Of a DNA stretch of 58,828 nucleotides, positions 12,808 through 18,758 are shown piece by piece. The translations under genes and the position numbers were made by a program. The stretch comes from Belnapia moabensis DSM 16746 (GTDB lineage Bacteria; Pseudomonadota; Alphaproteobacteria; Acetobacterales; Acetobacteraceae): contig NZ_JQKB01000035.1 in the NCBI RefSeq assembly GCF_000745835.1, positions 1 through 58,828 on the forward strand, given 5' to 3'. Within the stretch, counting starts at the first letter, position 1, and each line of letters begins with the position of its first letter. Below the pieces are notes generated by a model. It had not been told where the DNA came from. It did not search any database and saw only the letters and a program-made list of their open reading frames with translations.

Positions 12808-14241
12808 TTACTGCACCTCGCGCCAGGCGCCCTTCAGGTCGCCGAGGAAGCGGGCGTACTCGCGCTCCTTGCTCTCCGGGTCCGGCAGCCGCAACAGGTA
12901 GGAGGGGTGGACGGTCGGGAAGACCGGCACCCCGTCCTCGCTCTTCACCACCTCGCCGCGCACCTTGGTGATGGCGAGCGGCTTGCCGGTCAGCGCGCGC
13001 AGCGCCGTGGCGCCGAGCGAGACCACCAGCCGCGGCCCGACGATCTCGATCTCCCGCCGCAGGAAGGGCCGATAATGCGCGATGTCGCCCGCATCCGGCG
13101 ACTGGTGCAACCGCCGCCGCCCCGTCGGCTTGAATTTGAAATGCTTCACCGCGTTGGTGACATAGGCCTCGGCGCGGGGGATGCCCGCCTCCTCCAGCGC
13201 CCGGTTGAACATCCGCCCGGCCGGCCCGACGAAGGGGCGGCCCGCGATATCCTCCTCGTCGCCCGGCTGCTCGCCGACGAAGAGCAGCGCCGCCCCGATC
13301 GGCCCCTCGCCGAAGACGGCCTGGGTGGCGTGCTCGGCGAGCGGGCCGCGATCGGCGAGCACCTCGGCGCGGAGGGCGGCGAGGGCGGTGGCGGGATCCT
13401 GGGTGAAGAGATCGGCTGACATGGGCGCCTCAACGTCCGCCGCCAGCACCCGTTGCCGCCGCGGCGCGGCCGGGGTCGCCCCGCGCGCCACCATCTCCGC
13501 CACGCGCCGCGGCGCCTCCGCCATCAGCCGGGGAATGTCCTGTGCCTCGGGCAGGTTGCGCCAGTACTTCACCGGCATCTCGGCCCGCATGGCGGCGGGC
13601 TTGAGCCGGGCGGGATTGAAGATGCTGGCGAAATAGGCCCGCCACAGATCCTCCTTGGCATCCTCCGCCGGCGCGTCGGCCCGCCTGCCGCCGGGCCCCA
13701 TCTGTACTTCCTCCCCATCCCAATGCGCGCTCGCCTCCGGCGTCAGGATGGACCAGCGCATGCCCGCGAAGCGGCGGATGAAGAAGCCCGTTTCTGCCTC
13801 CAGGATATGGTGGTCCGGCTCGAACCAGGCGACATAACGCCCCTCCGGCGCCTCACGAAAGCGGACGAAGGCGTGCATCTTGTGGGCATCCCGCCGCACC
13901 GCCTTTGCCATCGCTTGGGCGCGGATCACCTCCGGGTCGGTCGCCATCTCCAGCAGCCCGTGCTCGCCATGGGCGATGCGCCAAAGCAGCCGATAGAGTA
14001 GGGCGAAGCGCTCCCCGTCGCGGTGGCGGATGACTACCTCCGCCAGCTCCGGGAAGGCGCGCGGCACGGTGATCCCGGCCCTTCGCGGCTCCGGCACCGG
14101 CTCATGCGCGAACAGCCCCGCCGCCTCGCCGACCAGGTGCCATGCCACACGCTCCGGTGCGACCTCGGCCGCCAGCAGTCGCCGCGCCGCCTCCCGCCAG
14201 GCCGGGAAGTCGGCGGGGCCGGGGAGGGCGATGCCGATCAC
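12808..14241 (-). CDS. udgX: DUF4130-UdgX fusion: uracil-DNA binding/crosslinking glycosylase
   Basis: This 477-residue protein joins two domains. Residues 1 to about 250 match DUF4130/TIGR03915, a predicted DNA-repair domain usually paired with a radical SAM protein. Residues from about 270 are a family 4-like uracil-DNA glycosylase of the UdgX type: motif A is GEQPGDEEDIAGRPFVGPAG, motif B is VHPSYLLR, and the UdgX loop is present as GRRRLHQSP with the His near residue 379. In characterised UdgX proteins this His forms a covalent bond with the uracil-containing DNA site. The GTG start at 14241 overlaps the radical SAM stop by four bases. Confidence 0.88.
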   Translation of the reverse strand: MIGIALPGPADFPAWREAARRLLAAEVAPERVAWHLVGEAAGLFAHEPVPEPRRAGITVPRAFPELAEVVIRHRDGERFALLYRLLWRIAHGEHGLLEMATDPEVIRAQAMAKAVRRDAHKMHAFVRFREAPEGRYVAWFEPDHHILEAETGFFIRRFAGMRWSILTPEASAHWDGEEVQMGPGGRRADAPAEDAKEDLWRAYFASIFNPARLKPAAMRAEMPVKYWRNLPEAQDIPRLMAEAPRRVAEMVARGATPAAPRRQRVLAADVEAPMSADLFTQDPATALAALRAEVLADRGPLAEHATQAVFGEGPIGAALLFVGEQPGDEEDIAGRPFVGPAGRMFNRALEEAGIPRAEAYVTNAVKHFKFKPTGRRRLHQSPDAGDIAHYRPFLRREIEIVGPRLVVSLGATALRALTGKPLAITKVRGEVVKSEDGVPVFPTVHPSYLLRLPDPESKEREYARFLGDLKGAWREVQ

Positions 14242-15479
14242 AGCAGCGCCATCTGCACCGGCTTGGCGAAGCCGGTGCGCGGCGCCACCAGCGCCCGCAG
14301 GTCGAGCCGATCCGTCACCCTCGGCCGATGATCCTCGGTCACGAGGAAGGGCAGCAGCTTCCCCAGCGGCAACCGCAGCCGCGCCAGGTCCTCGCTGCGG
14401 ATGCTGCGATGCCGCCGCGCCGCCAGCAGCCGGTCCACCGTTTTCGCCCCGAGCCCCGGCACGCGCAGCAGCCGCTCCCGCGGCGCCCGGTTCACATCGA
14501 CGGGGAAGTCGCCACGGTGGCGCAGCGCCCAGGCCAGCTTCGGGTCGATGCCGAGGTCGAGCATCCCGCCCTCGCCCCCGGCCATGATCTCGTCCAGCGA
14601 GAAGCCGTAGAAGCGCAGCAGCCAGTCCGCCTGGTACAGCCGGTGCTCGCGCACCAGCGGCGGCGCCGCCGGCGGCAGCAGGCGCGAGGCATCGGGGATC
14701 GGCGAATAGGCGGAGAAGTAGACCCGCTTCAGCCCGTAGCTGCCATAGAGATTGGCCGTCGTCCCGAGCACCGCCCGGTCGTCCGAGGCGTCGGCGCCGA
14801 TGATCATCTGCGTGCTCTGCCCGGCCGGGGCGAAGCGCGGGGCCGGCGCGCGCCGCTCCGTCTTCCGTGCTTCCTTCGCCTCCTCGATGCGCAGCCGCAT
14901 CTGCCCCATCGCGCGGCGAATTTCGGACAAATCCTTCTCCGGGGCGAGCGCCTTCAGCGCCCCCTCCTGCGGCAGCTCGATATTGATGGAGAGCCGGTCG
15001 GCATGCCGTCCCGCCTCGGCCAGCAATTCGGGAGAGGCGTCGGGGATGGTCTTCAGGTGGATATAGCCGCGGAAGCCATGCTCCTCGCGCAGGATGCGCG
15101 CGACATCGACCAGCCGCTCCATCGTGTAGTCGGGCGAGCGGATGATGCCGGAGGAGAGGAACAGCCCCTCGATGTAGTTGCGCCGGTAGAAGTCGAGCGT
15201 CAGCTCCACCAGCTCCCGCACCGTGAACCGCGCGCGCGGCACATTGCTGGTCGCCCGGTTGATGCAATAGGCGCAGTCATAGATGCAGGCATTGGTCAGC
15301 AGCACCTTCAGCAGCGAGATGCAGCGCCCGTCCGGCGCATAGGCATGGCAGATGCCCATGCCCTCCGTGCTGCCAAGGCCGCCCTCGCGGCTGTCCCGCT
15401 TCTCGGTTCCCGAGGAGGCGCAGGAGGCATCGTACTTCGCCGCATCCGCCAGGATCTCGAGCTTCTGCCGCAACTCCAT
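14238..15479 (-). CDS. Putative DNA modification/repair radical SAM protein with HhH domain
   Basis: This 413-residue protein matches TIGR03916. The radical SAM cluster motif CIYDCAYC gives Cys 65, 69 and 72; further conserved Cys residues near 20, 44 and 53 may bind extra iron-sulfur or metal. A helix-hairpin-helix DNA-binding segment sits near residues 335-367 (RLLRVPGLGAKTVDRLL), as in DNA repair enzymes. It is the first gene of a two-gene operon with the DUF4130-UdgX fusion. The reaction is not established; the pairing suggests reversal or processing of a damaged base. A short AT-richer gap with no clear promoter separates it from the divergent PepSY-like gene. Confidence 0.87.
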   Translation of the reverse strand: MELRQKLEILADAAKYDASCASSGTEKRDSREGGLGSTEGMGICHAYAPDGRCISLLKVLLTNACIYDCAYCINRATSNVPRARFTVRELVELTLDFYRRNYIEGLFLSSGIIRSPDYTMERLVDVARILREEHGFRGYIHLKTIPDASPELLAEAGRHADRLSINIELPQEGALKALAPEKDLSEIRRAMGQMRLRIEEAKEARKTERRAPAPRFAPAGQSTQMIIGADASDDRAVLGTTANLYGSYGLKRVYFSAYSPIPDASRLLPPAAPPLVREHRLYQADWLLRFYGFSLDEIMAGGEGGMLDLGIDPKLAWALRHRGDFPVDVNRAPRERLLRVPGLGAKTVDRLLAARRHRSIRSEDLARLRLPLGKLLPFLVTEDHRPRVTDRLDLRALVAPRTGFAKPVQMALL

Positions 15480-15568
15480 GCACGATCCTCCAGTTCCTTA
15501 TATGTTCTGGTACCGGCGGATTCAAGGCCTGAGTGAACCTTTCCGGTCGCGGGTAGTTATGGCGGCCG

Positions 15569-15973
15569 ATGATGCAGTTCCTCCGCCCCGCCCTGCTCCT
15601 CCTCCTGCTCGCCGGCCCAGCCCTGGCGCAGGAGGCCGCCTTCCTCACCCAGGACCAGCTGGCGACCGTGCTGCGCGCCCGCGGCTTCACCGACCTCGAA
15701 GGGGTGGAGCGCGAGGGCGACAGCTTCCGCATCGCCCGCGCCACGCGCTACGGCGAGCGGGTCGAGAATTTCCGCATCGACGCCGCCACCGGCCTGCCGC
15801 GCGAGCAGCCCCCGCTGACCGAGGCCCAGGCCCGCGAGTTGCTGCGCACCCGCGGATATACCCAGGTGACGGAGCTCGGCCGCGACGGCGATGCCATCCG
15901 CCTGCGCGGCCTGCGCGAGGGCACCCCCATCGAAGTGACCGTCGATGCCCGCACGGGGGCGGTGCGGCAATAG
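15569..15973 (+). CDS. Secreted PepSY-like protein
   Basis: This 134-residue protein has a signal peptide cleaved after ALA (MMQFLRPALLLLLLAGPALA). The mature part holds two copies of a roughly 50-residue unit built as 'TxxQxxxxLRxRGFTxxxxVxRxGDxxRxxxxRxGxxxxxxxDAxTG'. This is the pattern of PepSY-type repeats, which sit in the periplasm and inhibit or modulate partners. It is just upstream of the type III PKS gene (22-base gap) on the same strand, so the two may be cotranscribed. No partner is evident. Confidence 0.7.
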   Translation: MMQFLRPALLLLLLAGPALAQEAAFLTQDQLATVLRARGFTDLEGVEREGDSFRIARATRYGERVENFRIDAATGLPREQPPLTEAQARELLRTRGYTQVTELGRDGDAIRLRGLREGTPIEVTVDARTGAVRQ

Positions 15974-15995
15974 CCTTCAACCCCATCTCAAGCCT

Positions 15996-17051
15996 GTGAC
16001 CCAGGCCTATATCAACCGCATCGGCACCGCCGTCCCCCGGCATGAGGTGCATGACGCCTTCCGCCGCTTCGCCGACCGGCAGATCACCGAGCCGCGCATC
16101 CGCACCGCCTTCGCCCGGCTGGCAGAGCGCTCGCAGATCGACACCCGCCATTCCGTGCTGGAGGCCGAGCCGGATGCCAGTGGCACGGTGGACGGCTTCT
16201 ACCGCACCGACGCCTTCCCCGGCACCGGCGCCCGCATGGCCCGCTACGAGCGCGAGGCCCCGGCCCTGGCCGAAGCCGCCTGCCTGGCGATGGGGCTGGA
16301 AGGGGAGGGGCCGCGCGTCACCCATCTCGTCTTCGCCACCTGCACCGGCTTCGCCGCTCCCGGCCTCGACCACTGGCTGATCCGCCGCTTCGGCCTGCCG
16401 GGGAATGTGGAGCGCAGCATCGTCGGCTTCATGGGCTGCCAGGCGGCGATCAATGCGCTGAAGCTCGCCCACCACATCGTCCGCAGCGACGCGCGCGCAC
16501 GGGTTCTGGTGGTGAATCTCGAGCTCTGCACCCTCCACCTCCAGCCGAGCAGCGAGATCGAGCAGCTGCTCTGCTTTCTCCTTTTCGCCGACGGCGCCAG
16601 CGCCGCACTGGTGACGGCAGAGCCGCGGGGCATCGGGATCGAGGGCTTCCACGCCGCGCTGATCCCCGAAGCCGCCGACCAGATCACCTGGCGCATCGGC
16701 GATGGCGGCTTCGACATGACGCTCTCGGGCTTCGTGCCGCTCACCCTCGCCCGCGCCCTGCCCGACGAGGCGGCGGCCATCCTCGACGGCGAGGCGGCGG
16801 ACGCCTTCGACCTCTGGGCGGTGCATCCCGGCGGCCGCAGCGTGCTGGATGCGGTGACGCACGGCCTCAACCTGCCGGCACACGCGCTGGATGTAAGCCG
16901 GGCGGTGCTGCGCGAGCACGGCAACATGTCCTCCGCCACCGTCATGTTCGTCCTGCAACGGATGATGGCGGCGGGGCGCGGGCAACGCGGCTGCGCGCTG
17001 GCCTTCGGCCCCGGCCTCTCGGCCGAGACCATGCGCTTCCGCCTCGCCTGA
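15996..17051 (+). CDS. Type III polyketide synthase (chalcone/stilbene synthase family)
   Basis: This 351-residue ketosynthase should extend a fatty acyl-CoA starter with malonyl-CoA to give an alkylpyrone, alkylresorcinol or similar. The catalytic triad is complete: Cys148 in GFMGCQAAINA, His277 in AVHPGGRSVLDAV, and Asn310 in EHGNMSSATVMFV. The GTG at 15996 is chosen because the preceding gene ends 22 bases upstream and family proteins begin close to this point; no strong ribosome-binding site is seen. The methyltransferase start abuts its stop. With the following flavoprotein this forms a compact pathway. Confidence 0.87.
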   Translation: MTQAYINRIGTAVPRHEVHDAFRRFADRQITEPRIRTAFARLAERSQIDTRHSVLEAEPDASGTVDGFYRTDAFPGTGARMARYEREAPALAEAACLAMGLEGEGPRVTHLVFATCTGFAAPGLDHWLIRRFGLPGNVERSIVGFMGCQAAINALKLAHHIVRSDARARVLVVNLELCTLHLQPSSEIEQLLCFLLFADGASAALVTAEPRGIGIEGFHAALIPEAADQITWRIGDGGFDMTLSGFVPLTLARALPDEAAAILDGEAADAFDLWAVHPGGRSVLDAVTHGLNLPAHALDVSRAVLREHGNMSSATVMFVLQRMMAAGRGQRGCALAFGPGLSAETMRFRLA

Positions 17052-17731
17052 TGCGCCAGCGCAGCGCCGCCGAGGAGTGGATGGACGACGCGGCCGCGAC
17101 CGAGGCCGAATTCGCCTCCGCTCTGCGCGACCTCGCCCGCATCAACCGGATGAGCCTCGCCTACCGCCCGACTCTCCGCTGGCTCGACGCGCTGGTGGCC
17201 GAAACGGGCGCCCGCCACCTCTCCGTGCTCGATATCGGCTTCGGCGGCGGCGACATGCTGGCCGCCATCGCCCGCTGGGCCGCCCGCCGCGGCGTCACCG
17301 TGGACCTCGTGGGGCTCGACCGCAGCCCCTGGGCCGCCCGCTACTCGGCCGCCGCCGGGGTCAAGGCCCGCTTCATCACCGCCGACCTCTTCGACCTGCC
17401 GGCGGAGGAGCGCTTCGATGTCGTGCTGTGCAGCCTCTTCACCCATCACCTGCGCGATCCGGAGCTGGTGCGCTTCCTCCGCTGGCTGCCGGGGCGCGCG
17501 CGAAGGGGCTGGCTGATCTCCGACCTGCACCGCCACTGGCTACCCTGGAGCTTCGTCTGGGGCGCGGTGCGGCTGCTGCGGATGGACCCGATGGTGGTGC
17601 ATGACAGCACCGTCTCCATCGCCCGCGGATTCACCCGCGCCGATTGGCAGCGGCTGGTGGCCGAAGCCGGCGTCGCGGCGCGGATCGAGTGGGCCTTCCC
17701 GTTCAAATGGATCGTCTCCGCCCGTGCCTGA
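17051..17731 (+). CDS. SAM-dependent methyltransferase, PKS-associated
   Basis: This 226-residue class I methyltransferase has motif I VLDIGFGGGDML near residue 58 and the acidic ribose-binding residue in VGLDRSP. It starts at the last base of the PKS stop (TGATG) and its own stop lies within the next gene, so the three are translationally coupled. The likely task is methylation of the polyketide product. Its sequence resembles methyltransferases commonly found between a type III PKS and a geranylgeranyl-reductase-like flavoprotein. Whether it acts on carbon or oxygen cannot be told. Confidence 0.85.
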   Translation: MRQRSAAEEWMDDAAATEAEFASALRDLARINRMSLAYRPTLRWLDALVAETGARHLSVLDIGFGGGDMLAAIARWAARRGVTVDLVGLDRSPWAARYSAAAGVKARFITADLFDLPAEERFDVVLCSLFTHHLRDPELVRFLRWLPGRARRGWLISDLHRHWLPWSFVWGAVRLLRMDPMVVHDSTVSIARGFTRADWQRLVAEAGVAARIEWAFPFKWIVSARA

Positions 17732-18758
17732 TGTCGTGGTGATCGGCGCCGGCCCGGCCGGCTGCGCGGCGGCGATCACCCTTGCCCGCGCCGGCCGGGA
17801 GGTGCTGCTGCTGGAGCGCAGTCCCGAGCCCCGCGAGAGCGTCTGCGGCGAATTCCTCGGCCCCGACGCGGCGGCAGCGCTGGCCCGCCTCGGCCTCGAT
17901 CCGGCGGCGCTCGGCGGCGCCCCGCTGCGGCGGATGCGGATCGGCCATGGCAGGCGCGAGGCCGATTTGGCGCTGCCCTTCCCCGCCTGGGCCCTGCCGC
18001 GCCGCCTGCTTGACGGCGCCCTCCAGGGGGCCGCCGGCCCGACCCTGCGCCGCGGCACCGCCGTGCTCGGCGCCGTGCCGATGGGGGAGGGGTGGCGCCT
18101 CCGCACCCCTTCAGGCGAGATTGAGGCGCGGCGCATCATCCTCGCCACCGGCAAGCACGCGCTGCGCGGCCATCCGCGCGAGGGCGCCCCGCCGCCCGCC
18201 CTCGGCCTCAAGCTGCACCTCGCCGGGGTGGCGATGGCGGATGCCGTCGCCCTGCTGCCCTTCGACGGCGGCTATGCCGGCCTGCAACCCCTGCCCGGCG
18301 GCGGGGCCAATCTCTGCGCCGCCCTGCACGGCCCGCCCGGCGACCTGCTCGCCCGCGTCCGCGCAGGCTCCGCCCTTGCCGGGCGCCTGCTCCGCGATGC
18401 GCGCCCGCTCTGGGACCGGCCGCTCGCCATCGCCGGCGTGCCCTACGGCTTCCACCAGCCCGCCGCCGGGCCGCCCGGCCTCTACCGCGTCGGCGACCAG
18501 GCGGCGGTGATCCCGAGCTTCACCGGCGAGGGCGTGGCGCTTGCCCTGCATTCCGGCCTGGCGGCGGCCGAGGCAATCCTCGCCGGCCAGGAGGCCGCCG
18601 CCTTCCACGCCGCATGGCGCCGCCGCAGCGCCGGGCCGATGCGCTGGGCCGGCCTTGCCGCGCATGTGCTGCGAGCCTCGCCCCCCGCCTTCGCCGCCCT
18701 CGGCGCGGTCGGCCCGCTGGCGCGCTTCGTTGCTACACGGACCCGGGTAGCCGCCTGA
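17724..18758 (+). CDS. FAD-dependent oxidoreductase, geranylgeranyl-reductase/UbiH-like
   Basis: This 344-residue flavoprotein begins with the FAD dinucleotide-binding motif VVVIGAGPAGCAAA and carries a second FAD-contact motif, YRVGDQAAVIPSFTGEG, near residue 255. The segment ESVCGEFLGPDAAAAL is typical of flavoproteins in this PKS neighbourhood. The GTG at 17724 was chosen because the glycine motif must lie at the N-terminus; it overlaps the methyltransferase by eight bases. Probable role: hydroxylation or reduction of the polyketide. It is the last gene before convergent Bug receptors. Confidence 0.83.
   Translation: MPDVVVIGAGPAGCAAAITLARAGREVLLLERSPEPRESVCGEFLGPDAAAALARLGLDPAALGGAPLRRMRIGHGRREADLALPFPAWALPRRLLDGALQGAAGPTLRRGTAVLGAVPMGEGWRLRTPSGEIEARRIILATGKHALRGHPREGAPPPALGLKLHLAGVAMADAVALLPFDGGYAGLQPLPGGGANLCAALHGPPGDLLARVRAGSALAGRLLRDARPLWDRPLAIAGVPYGFHQPAAGPPGLYRVGDQAAVIPSFTGEGVALALHSGLAAAEAILAGQEAAAFHAAWRRRSAGPMRWAGLAAHVLRASPPAFAALGAVGPLARFVATRTRVAA

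Follow-up and report, generated by a model that had tools for sequence, protein, structure and literature searches.

The window analysed here is a stretch of 58,828 nucleotides from Belnapia moabensis DSM 16746 (contig NZ_JQKB01000035.1, positions 1 to 58,828), and our subject is a pair of overlapping genes on its minus strand. The first gene (14238..15479, ATG start) encodes a radical S-adenosylmethionine (rSAM) protein of 413 amino acids that belongs to the family TIGR03916. The second gene (12808..14241, 477 amino acids) encodes a fusion of DUF4130 with a UdgX-type uracil-DNA glycosylase (UDG). Its GTG start overlaps the rSAM stop codon in the tetranucleotide GTGA (14238..14241), which is the overlap of four bases reported in an earlier first-pass annotation of this DNA.

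In NCBIfam, the rSAM protein reaches 558.9 bits against TIGR03916 (cut-off 343.5), and its Pfam match to Radical_SAM (PF04055) scores 35.1 bits (cut-off 29.5). Residues 10-233 of the fusion (13543..14214, minus strand) match TIGR03915 with 224.8 bits (cut-off 112.25), and residues 236-470 (12832..13536, minus strand) match TIGR03914, the UdgX family, with 288.9 bits (cut-off 189.95). The corresponding Pfam matches are DUF4130 (PF13566, 145.4 bits, cut-off 27) and UDG (110.9 bits, cut-off 24.3). The search with the three TIGR profiles, which the first-pass annotation had proposed, therefore returned all of them above their curated cut-offs and agrees with its description of DUF4130 joined to a UdgX-type glycosylase. 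TIGR03916, TIGR03915 and TIGR03914 are already named families, and their linkage has already been named by NCBIfam.

The rSAM protein of TIGR03916 was found in 50 of 120 genomes sampled from the family of the source organism. The closest named relative is Belnapia sp. F-4-1, with an rSAM protein 96% identical to that of the window, among 80 named loci that are the top-scoring of at least 589 confirmed and are therefore biased towards near relatives. There is overlap between the family, phylum and named samples, as L004/L012/L020 lie on the same contigs as L089/L083/L094; these three loci were excluded from the count of protein tails and from the rSAM tree, and were included in the family and named counts of promoter boxes. 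Seven further loci cut by the end of the locus or of the contig (L007, L043, L044, L125, L129, L132 and L137) were also excluded from the tree. The 136 sequences of the tail count and the 129 of the tree include near-copies: L053 equals L096 over the part used, and L001, L013 and L080 are close to one another. Phyla beyond the Pseudomonadota sample are represented by single records.

The rSAM-DUF4130 pair and the UdgX domain

In a sample of 200 Pseudomonadota genomes, 31 encode a TIGR03916 protein above the cut-off, the genome of the window included. Intact DUF4130 occurs in precisely these 31 genomes and in no other, in each case within 1 kb of the rSAM match and on the same contig and strand. 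A 32nd genome with a DUF4130 match (G189) retains a remnant of 35 residues. Among the named loci, DUF4130 was found at 78 of 80, and the sequence of the other two (L129 and L137) stops soon after the rSAM gene. The first-pass annotation had regarded the locus as a DNA-repair pair and had named the lack of joint conservation in relatives as evidence to the contrary; the two genes are conserved together.

UdgX follows a different distribution. It exceeds the cut-off in 29 of the 200 genomes, namely in 23 of the 31 rSAM-positive and in 6 of the 169 rSAM-negative ones, and eight rSAM-positive genomes have no UdgX above the cut-off. At six loci of the family sample (L010, L011, L015, L020, L026 and L028) the second gene consists of DUF4130 alone, as it does in a Spirosoma plasmid and in an Acinetobacter record. 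L009 (G117) still has an intact rSAM protein, DUF4130 and LexA-type box, but its UDG sequence is degenerate (VDEQPGE) and no longer carries the His of the R-loop. Three of the six rSAM-less UdgX genomes were read (L075, L077 and L079): the end of a DUF4130 domain precedes UdgX as a scar, and no box was found upstream of UdgX. A Caulobacter genome gives matches to all three families, and CC2333 of Caulobacter crescentus NA1000 belongs to the UDG family (PMC1839093).

We mapped the presence of UdgX on a tree of 129 rSAM sequences, where absence means that no domain lies in or next to the second gene rather than in the whole genome. UdgX is present in 105 rows and absent from 24 (23 with no domain and the degenerate L009). 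Parsimony requires 17 changes, at least 11 of which are forced by starred branches, on a tree built with a quick method and with counted changes that cannot separate gain from loss. The presence of UdgX is clustered on the tree, as none of 500 shuffles returned so low a number of changes. Judging from these sequence comparisons, rSAM and DUF4130 are the core of the system, because they occur in the same genomes while UdgX comes and goes, and UdgX is detachable in both directions.

LexA-type boxes upstream of the rSAM gene

A LexA-type box, GTTC-CTTATAT-GTTC (GAACATATAAGGAAC on the coding strand), lies at 15493..15507, 13 nt 5' of the rSAM start codon, and is the single exact match of GTTC-N7-GTTC in the whole window. 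Between the box and the start codon we recognised by eye a GGAGG ribosome-binding site (15487..15491, minus strand). The start codons used to measure upstream distances in other loci were picked by a script. In the family sample, 23 of 30 loci have a perfect box no more than 83 nt before the rSAM start. In the 29 loci of the phylum sample, GTTC-N7-GTTC is present within 97 nt in all 21 other alphaproteobacterial loci, CTGT-N8-ACAG is found at six of the eight non-alphaproteobacterial ones, and neither type occurs at L031 and L045. Of the 68 named loci classed as alphaproteobacterial, 64 have GTTC-N7-GTTC within 120 nt, compared with a flank background of 21 boxes in 679,820 nt, or 0.004 per 120 nt. 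Among the 12 non-alphaproteobacterial named loci, CTGT-N8-ACAG is perfect at L111, L141, L150 and L153 and carries a mismatch at L093, L095 and L120, the Verrucomicrobiota locus L121 has a perfect TGTTC-N4-GAACA, and no box was found near the rSAM start of L092, L097, L140 and L152 by the patterns tried. The box is thus conserved among relatives, and its type shifts with the lineage; which type of box belongs to which lineage is taken as given. Pairs that lack UdgX keep their boxes as well (for example L010, L011, L033, L035, L104 and L109).

In the genome of the window, lexA itself is preceded by GTTC-N7-GTTC at -75 and by a one-mismatch copy at -51. These data suggest that LexA binds the box and that the pair belongs to the SOS response. 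Control of the COG1573-COG4277 pair by LexA is already published: in PMC8565304, the pair is a predicted LexA-regulated two-gene unit of Bacteroidetes, and SOS regulation of a UDG-based system is cited for Verrucomicrobia and Alphaproteobacteria.

The two proteins and their genomic neighbourhood

The radical SAM cluster motif CIYDCAYC (C65/C69/C72; 15264..15287, minus strand) reads as given in the first-pass annotation and is invariant in 67 sequences. Three additional cysteines, C20, C44 and C53, with H45 (15321..15422, minus strand), are invariant in 12 of 12 and in 67 of 67 aligned rSAM sequences and form a candidate second metal or Fe-S site, in a stretch of low confidence in the predicted structure. 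The helix-hairpin-helix claimed alongside the cluster motif is less clear. Residues 310-354 (14418..14552, minus strand) score 24.3 bits against HHH_5, with a cut-off of 27, and have weak matches to ComEA and RuvA (E 0.02-0.08); such a motif is likely there, below the threshold.

The rSAM protein ends with the pentapeptide QMALL (residues 409-413; 14241..14255, minus strand), which resembles the beta-clamp-binding motif and has the consensus Q-L/M-S/E-L-F in relatives. Like the QLSLF-type pentapeptides of DnaN binders, it lies in an apparently flexible tail, with a predicted local distance difference test score (pLDDT) below 50 for residues 402-413 of the predicted structure. A strict pattern, Q[LM]xL[FLW] in the last 22 residues, is present in 94 of 136 rSAM proteins and in 1 of 462 control open reading frames, and a looser one in 126 of 136 and 22 of 462, respectively, the controls being mechanical open reading frames rather than annotated genes and the 136 sequences including the near-copies mentioned above. 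We found no literature that brings together a clamp-binding motif, SOS and radical SAM among open-licence papers. The best 50 fold matches listed for the rSAM protein include HydE, lipoyl synthase, biotin synthase, MqnE and pyruvate formate-lyase activating enzyme. Spore photoproduct lyase is not among the best 50 in either list, which excludes nothing.

In the fusion, the model of residues 1-235, which include DUF4130, has a mean pLDDT of 90.6. The closest structure to the glycosylase part in the PDB is M. smegmatis UdgX (6ajo, E 1.6e-45). The R-loop GRRRLH (13105..13122, minus strand) carries H379 (codon 13105-13107), which corresponds in the alignment to H109 of the M. smegmatis protein and is the predicted cross-linking residue, so the motif GRRRLHQSP and its His are as the first-pass annotation described them. 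All 66 fused UdgX domains from the named loci have this His, as do 21 of the 22 family loci read. Counterparts of E52, Q53, D56, D59, F65, N91, K94, R107, H109, H178 and R184 are all kept, in the numbering and with the catalytic roles given in PMC10359453 and PMC10776899. The alignment also returns the GEQPG motif A, the R-loop residues R107 and H109 and the HPS motif B, signature residues taken from PMC10359453. Cross-linking through H379 is probable on these grounds.

The UdgX domain of the window contains no cysteine at all, and 60 of the 67 UdgX domains compared do. Cysteines are missing in particular from CxxC (before TQAV) and from ACRPW, which we take to be the ligands of the 4Fe-4S cluster of UdgX; since they are gone, no cluster of that kind is expected here. 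By signature and model, the domain is UdgX-type, a variant without the cluster cysteines. Cysteine-free domains also occur at L080-L083, L102 and L135, and together with that of the window (12808-13536) they occupy two distinct regions of the rSAM tree; in all of them the Fe-S ligands are lost and the cross-linking residues are kept. The cysteine-free domain, the LexA-type box, the clamp-like tail and the extra cysteines had gone unmentioned in the first-pass annotation.

Four loci have a hemerythrin-domain gene between the rSAM and the DUF4130-UdgX genes (L112:6268-6756, L130:6309-6788, L144:6494-6967 and L154:4153-4635; PF01814, 51.8-64.2 bits), three in named Sphingomonadaceae and one in an unplaced metagenome-assembled genome of Pseudomonadota. 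Its product perhaps handles oxygen or iron for the radical enzyme. A plasmid of Gemmatirosa kalamazoonensis (L163:4001-5263) encodes a distant rSAM homologue (38.5%) without the three extra cysteines and with QLSLW near its end; no DUF4130 was found in this locus, and the protein possibly represents a sister family. The rSAM gene was found on 158 plasmid records, for example in Phaeobacter, Paracoccus, Azospirillum, Leisingera and Agrobacterium. Of these, 142 are typed as non-mobilizable, and the module often sits on large replicons. Three rSAM records are labelled as viral, namely two IMG/VR contigs (L160 and L161) and one named Acinetobacter phage MD-2021a (L165); the latter is probably chromosomal DNA because glyS/glyQ adjoin the rSAM gene. 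In the window, positions 15945-18758 (plus strand) hold, as judged by eye, consecutive genes for a type III polyketide-synthase-like protein, a methyltransferase and an FAD-dependent oxidoreductase, possibly a small biosynthetic cluster.

Interpretation and comparison with known systems

We favour, with a probability of roughly 0.55, the reading that rSAM and DUF4130 form an SOS-induced and probably clamp-tethered module acting on DNA lesions, to which UdgX would add an optional uracil trap. DNA damage would lead to the cleavage of LexA and free the promoter, and the rSAM protein and its DUF4130 partner would then be produced together and in step. The case for these two steps comes from the sequence. 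The QLSLF-like tail may tether the rSAM protein to the replication sliding clamp, and the helix-hairpin-helix-like region may contact DNA. A DNA lesion would be the target of 5'-deoxyadenosyl-radical chemistry, in which DUF4130 would be the constant partner and C20/C44/C53 may hold a second metal centre. Where present, UdgX would remove uracil and stay covalently on the abasic site, here via H379, and would thereby cap sites of deamination or misincorporation at forks under stress. More tentatively, we propose a specific form of this reading, in which the clamp-tethered pair reverses or remodels the lesion by a route other than that of spore photoproduct lyase, the second centre is an Fe-S cluster, and UdgX, repeatedly gained or lost, works here without one.

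Several observations weigh against the favoured reading. Seven of the 30 family loci have no perfect box (at four of them, a site with one mismatch lies within 200 nt), none was found at three Xanthomonadaceae loci by the patterns tried, and recA of the same genome has a one-mismatch site only. Shuffled versions of the window contain on average 0.55 matches of GTTC-N7-GTTC, with at least one in 45 of 100 shuffles, and the whole genome has 91 matches compared with 80 for the reversed control pattern, hardly an enrichment. The argument from the box consequently rests on its position and conservation, because the window is likely to contain a match by chance and the enrichment in the genome is slight. 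The tail pentapeptide is a short linear motif of the kind seen in beta-clamp binders, and the mechanical controls and near-copies qualify its counts. The HHH_5 score stays below the cut-off, and for DUF4130 no confident structural or sequence relative was found.

Among the alternatives, the rSAM protein may act on a target other than a lesion, either installing a DNA base modification or modifying DUF4130 or the clamp as a protein maturase. The extra N-terminal cysteines recall auxiliary-cluster rSAM enzymes, NCBI names TIGR03916 a 'putative DNA modification/repair radical SAM protein', and HydE, lipoyl synthase, biotin synthase, MqnE and pyruvate formate-lyase activating enzyme are near folds. 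However, fold neighbours reveal little about the substrate, and the LexA-type control argues for damage processing over constitutive modification. We consider this alternative unlikely. A further alternative is a base excision repair operon built around the UDG, with rSAM and DUF4130 as accessories. A UDG-based operon of this kind has been proposed (PMC8565304), and it would agree with the LexA-type promoter and with the intact catalytic residues of the UdgX-type domain. The UDG is nevertheless dispensable, as the pair persists without it, and UdgX remains bound after excision with no turnover, according to PMC10359453. UdgX would be a poor enzyme for ordinary base excision repair because it stays bound instead of turning over, and this explanation is somewhat less likely again.

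The first-pass annotation had suggested that covalent adducts form when UdgX traps uracil sites, and that the rSAM protein, with DUF4130, may repair or release them. UdgX is indeed strongly associated with the rSAM protein (23 of 31 genomes compared with 6 of 169), and it is fused to DUF4130 and retains the His in 66 of 66 domains. Yet the pair occurs without UdgX in 8 of 31 genomes, in 24 of 129 tree rows (one with the degenerate UDG) and in the Bacteroidota (Spirosoma) and Acinetobacter records, and pairs without UdgX still have LexA-type boxes. Conversely, UdgX is found without rSAM in 6 of 169 genomes, the three read carrying the DUF4130 scar, and the UdgX of M. smegmatis stands alone, with PDB chains of 205-229 amino acids. 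With rSAM-DUF4130 constant and UdgX absent from a part of the genomes, adduct release is unsupported as the general job of the rSAM protein and is the least probable of the three alternatives.

Should DNA be its substrate, the rSAM protein would add to DNA repair a radical enzyme that is widespread beyond the spore formers. TIGR03916 and DUF4130 are named yet unexplained, and we recognised no functional study of the pair in the open-licence literature; a constant unit with LexA-type control and a clamp-like tail makes their role testable. The cysteine-free UdgX bears on the purpose of the UdgX Fe-S cluster. UdgX serves as a tool and its physiological role is largely unknown, as stated in PMC10359453.

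The locus resembles several known systems. It has the same linkage as the TIGR03916/03915/03914 families and the COG4277-COG1573 pair, with all proteins well above the cut-offs and no difference at the family level, apart from a UdgX domain that is cysteine-free unlike 60 of the 67 compared. It also has the COG pair and the LexA-type promoter of the Bacteroidetes 'UDG-based DNA base excision repair' operon, as described in PMC8565304, and differs in having a UDG of the UdgX type that is joined to DUF4130. The name 'UDG-based' may misfit some members, because the one Spirosoma operon read has DUF4130 and no UDG domain. Compared with M. smegmatis UdgX (6ajo and others), the domain of the window has all listed catalytic counterparts, is fused to DUF4130 and lacks cysteines at the CxxC and ACRPW positions. 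A further, tentative comparison is with the DHH/DHHA1 phosphoesterase superfamily (RecJ, Cdc45 and PAP phosphatase). Radical SAM proteins associated with DUF4130 have been termed 'SplB-like' (PMC3765255). The known radical SAM enzyme of DNA repair, spore photoproduct lyase (SplB), shares the radical SAM core with the protein of the window, and both are tied to SOS in the literature; the latter adds the extra N-terminal cysteines, the helix-hairpin-helix-like region and the clamp-like tail.

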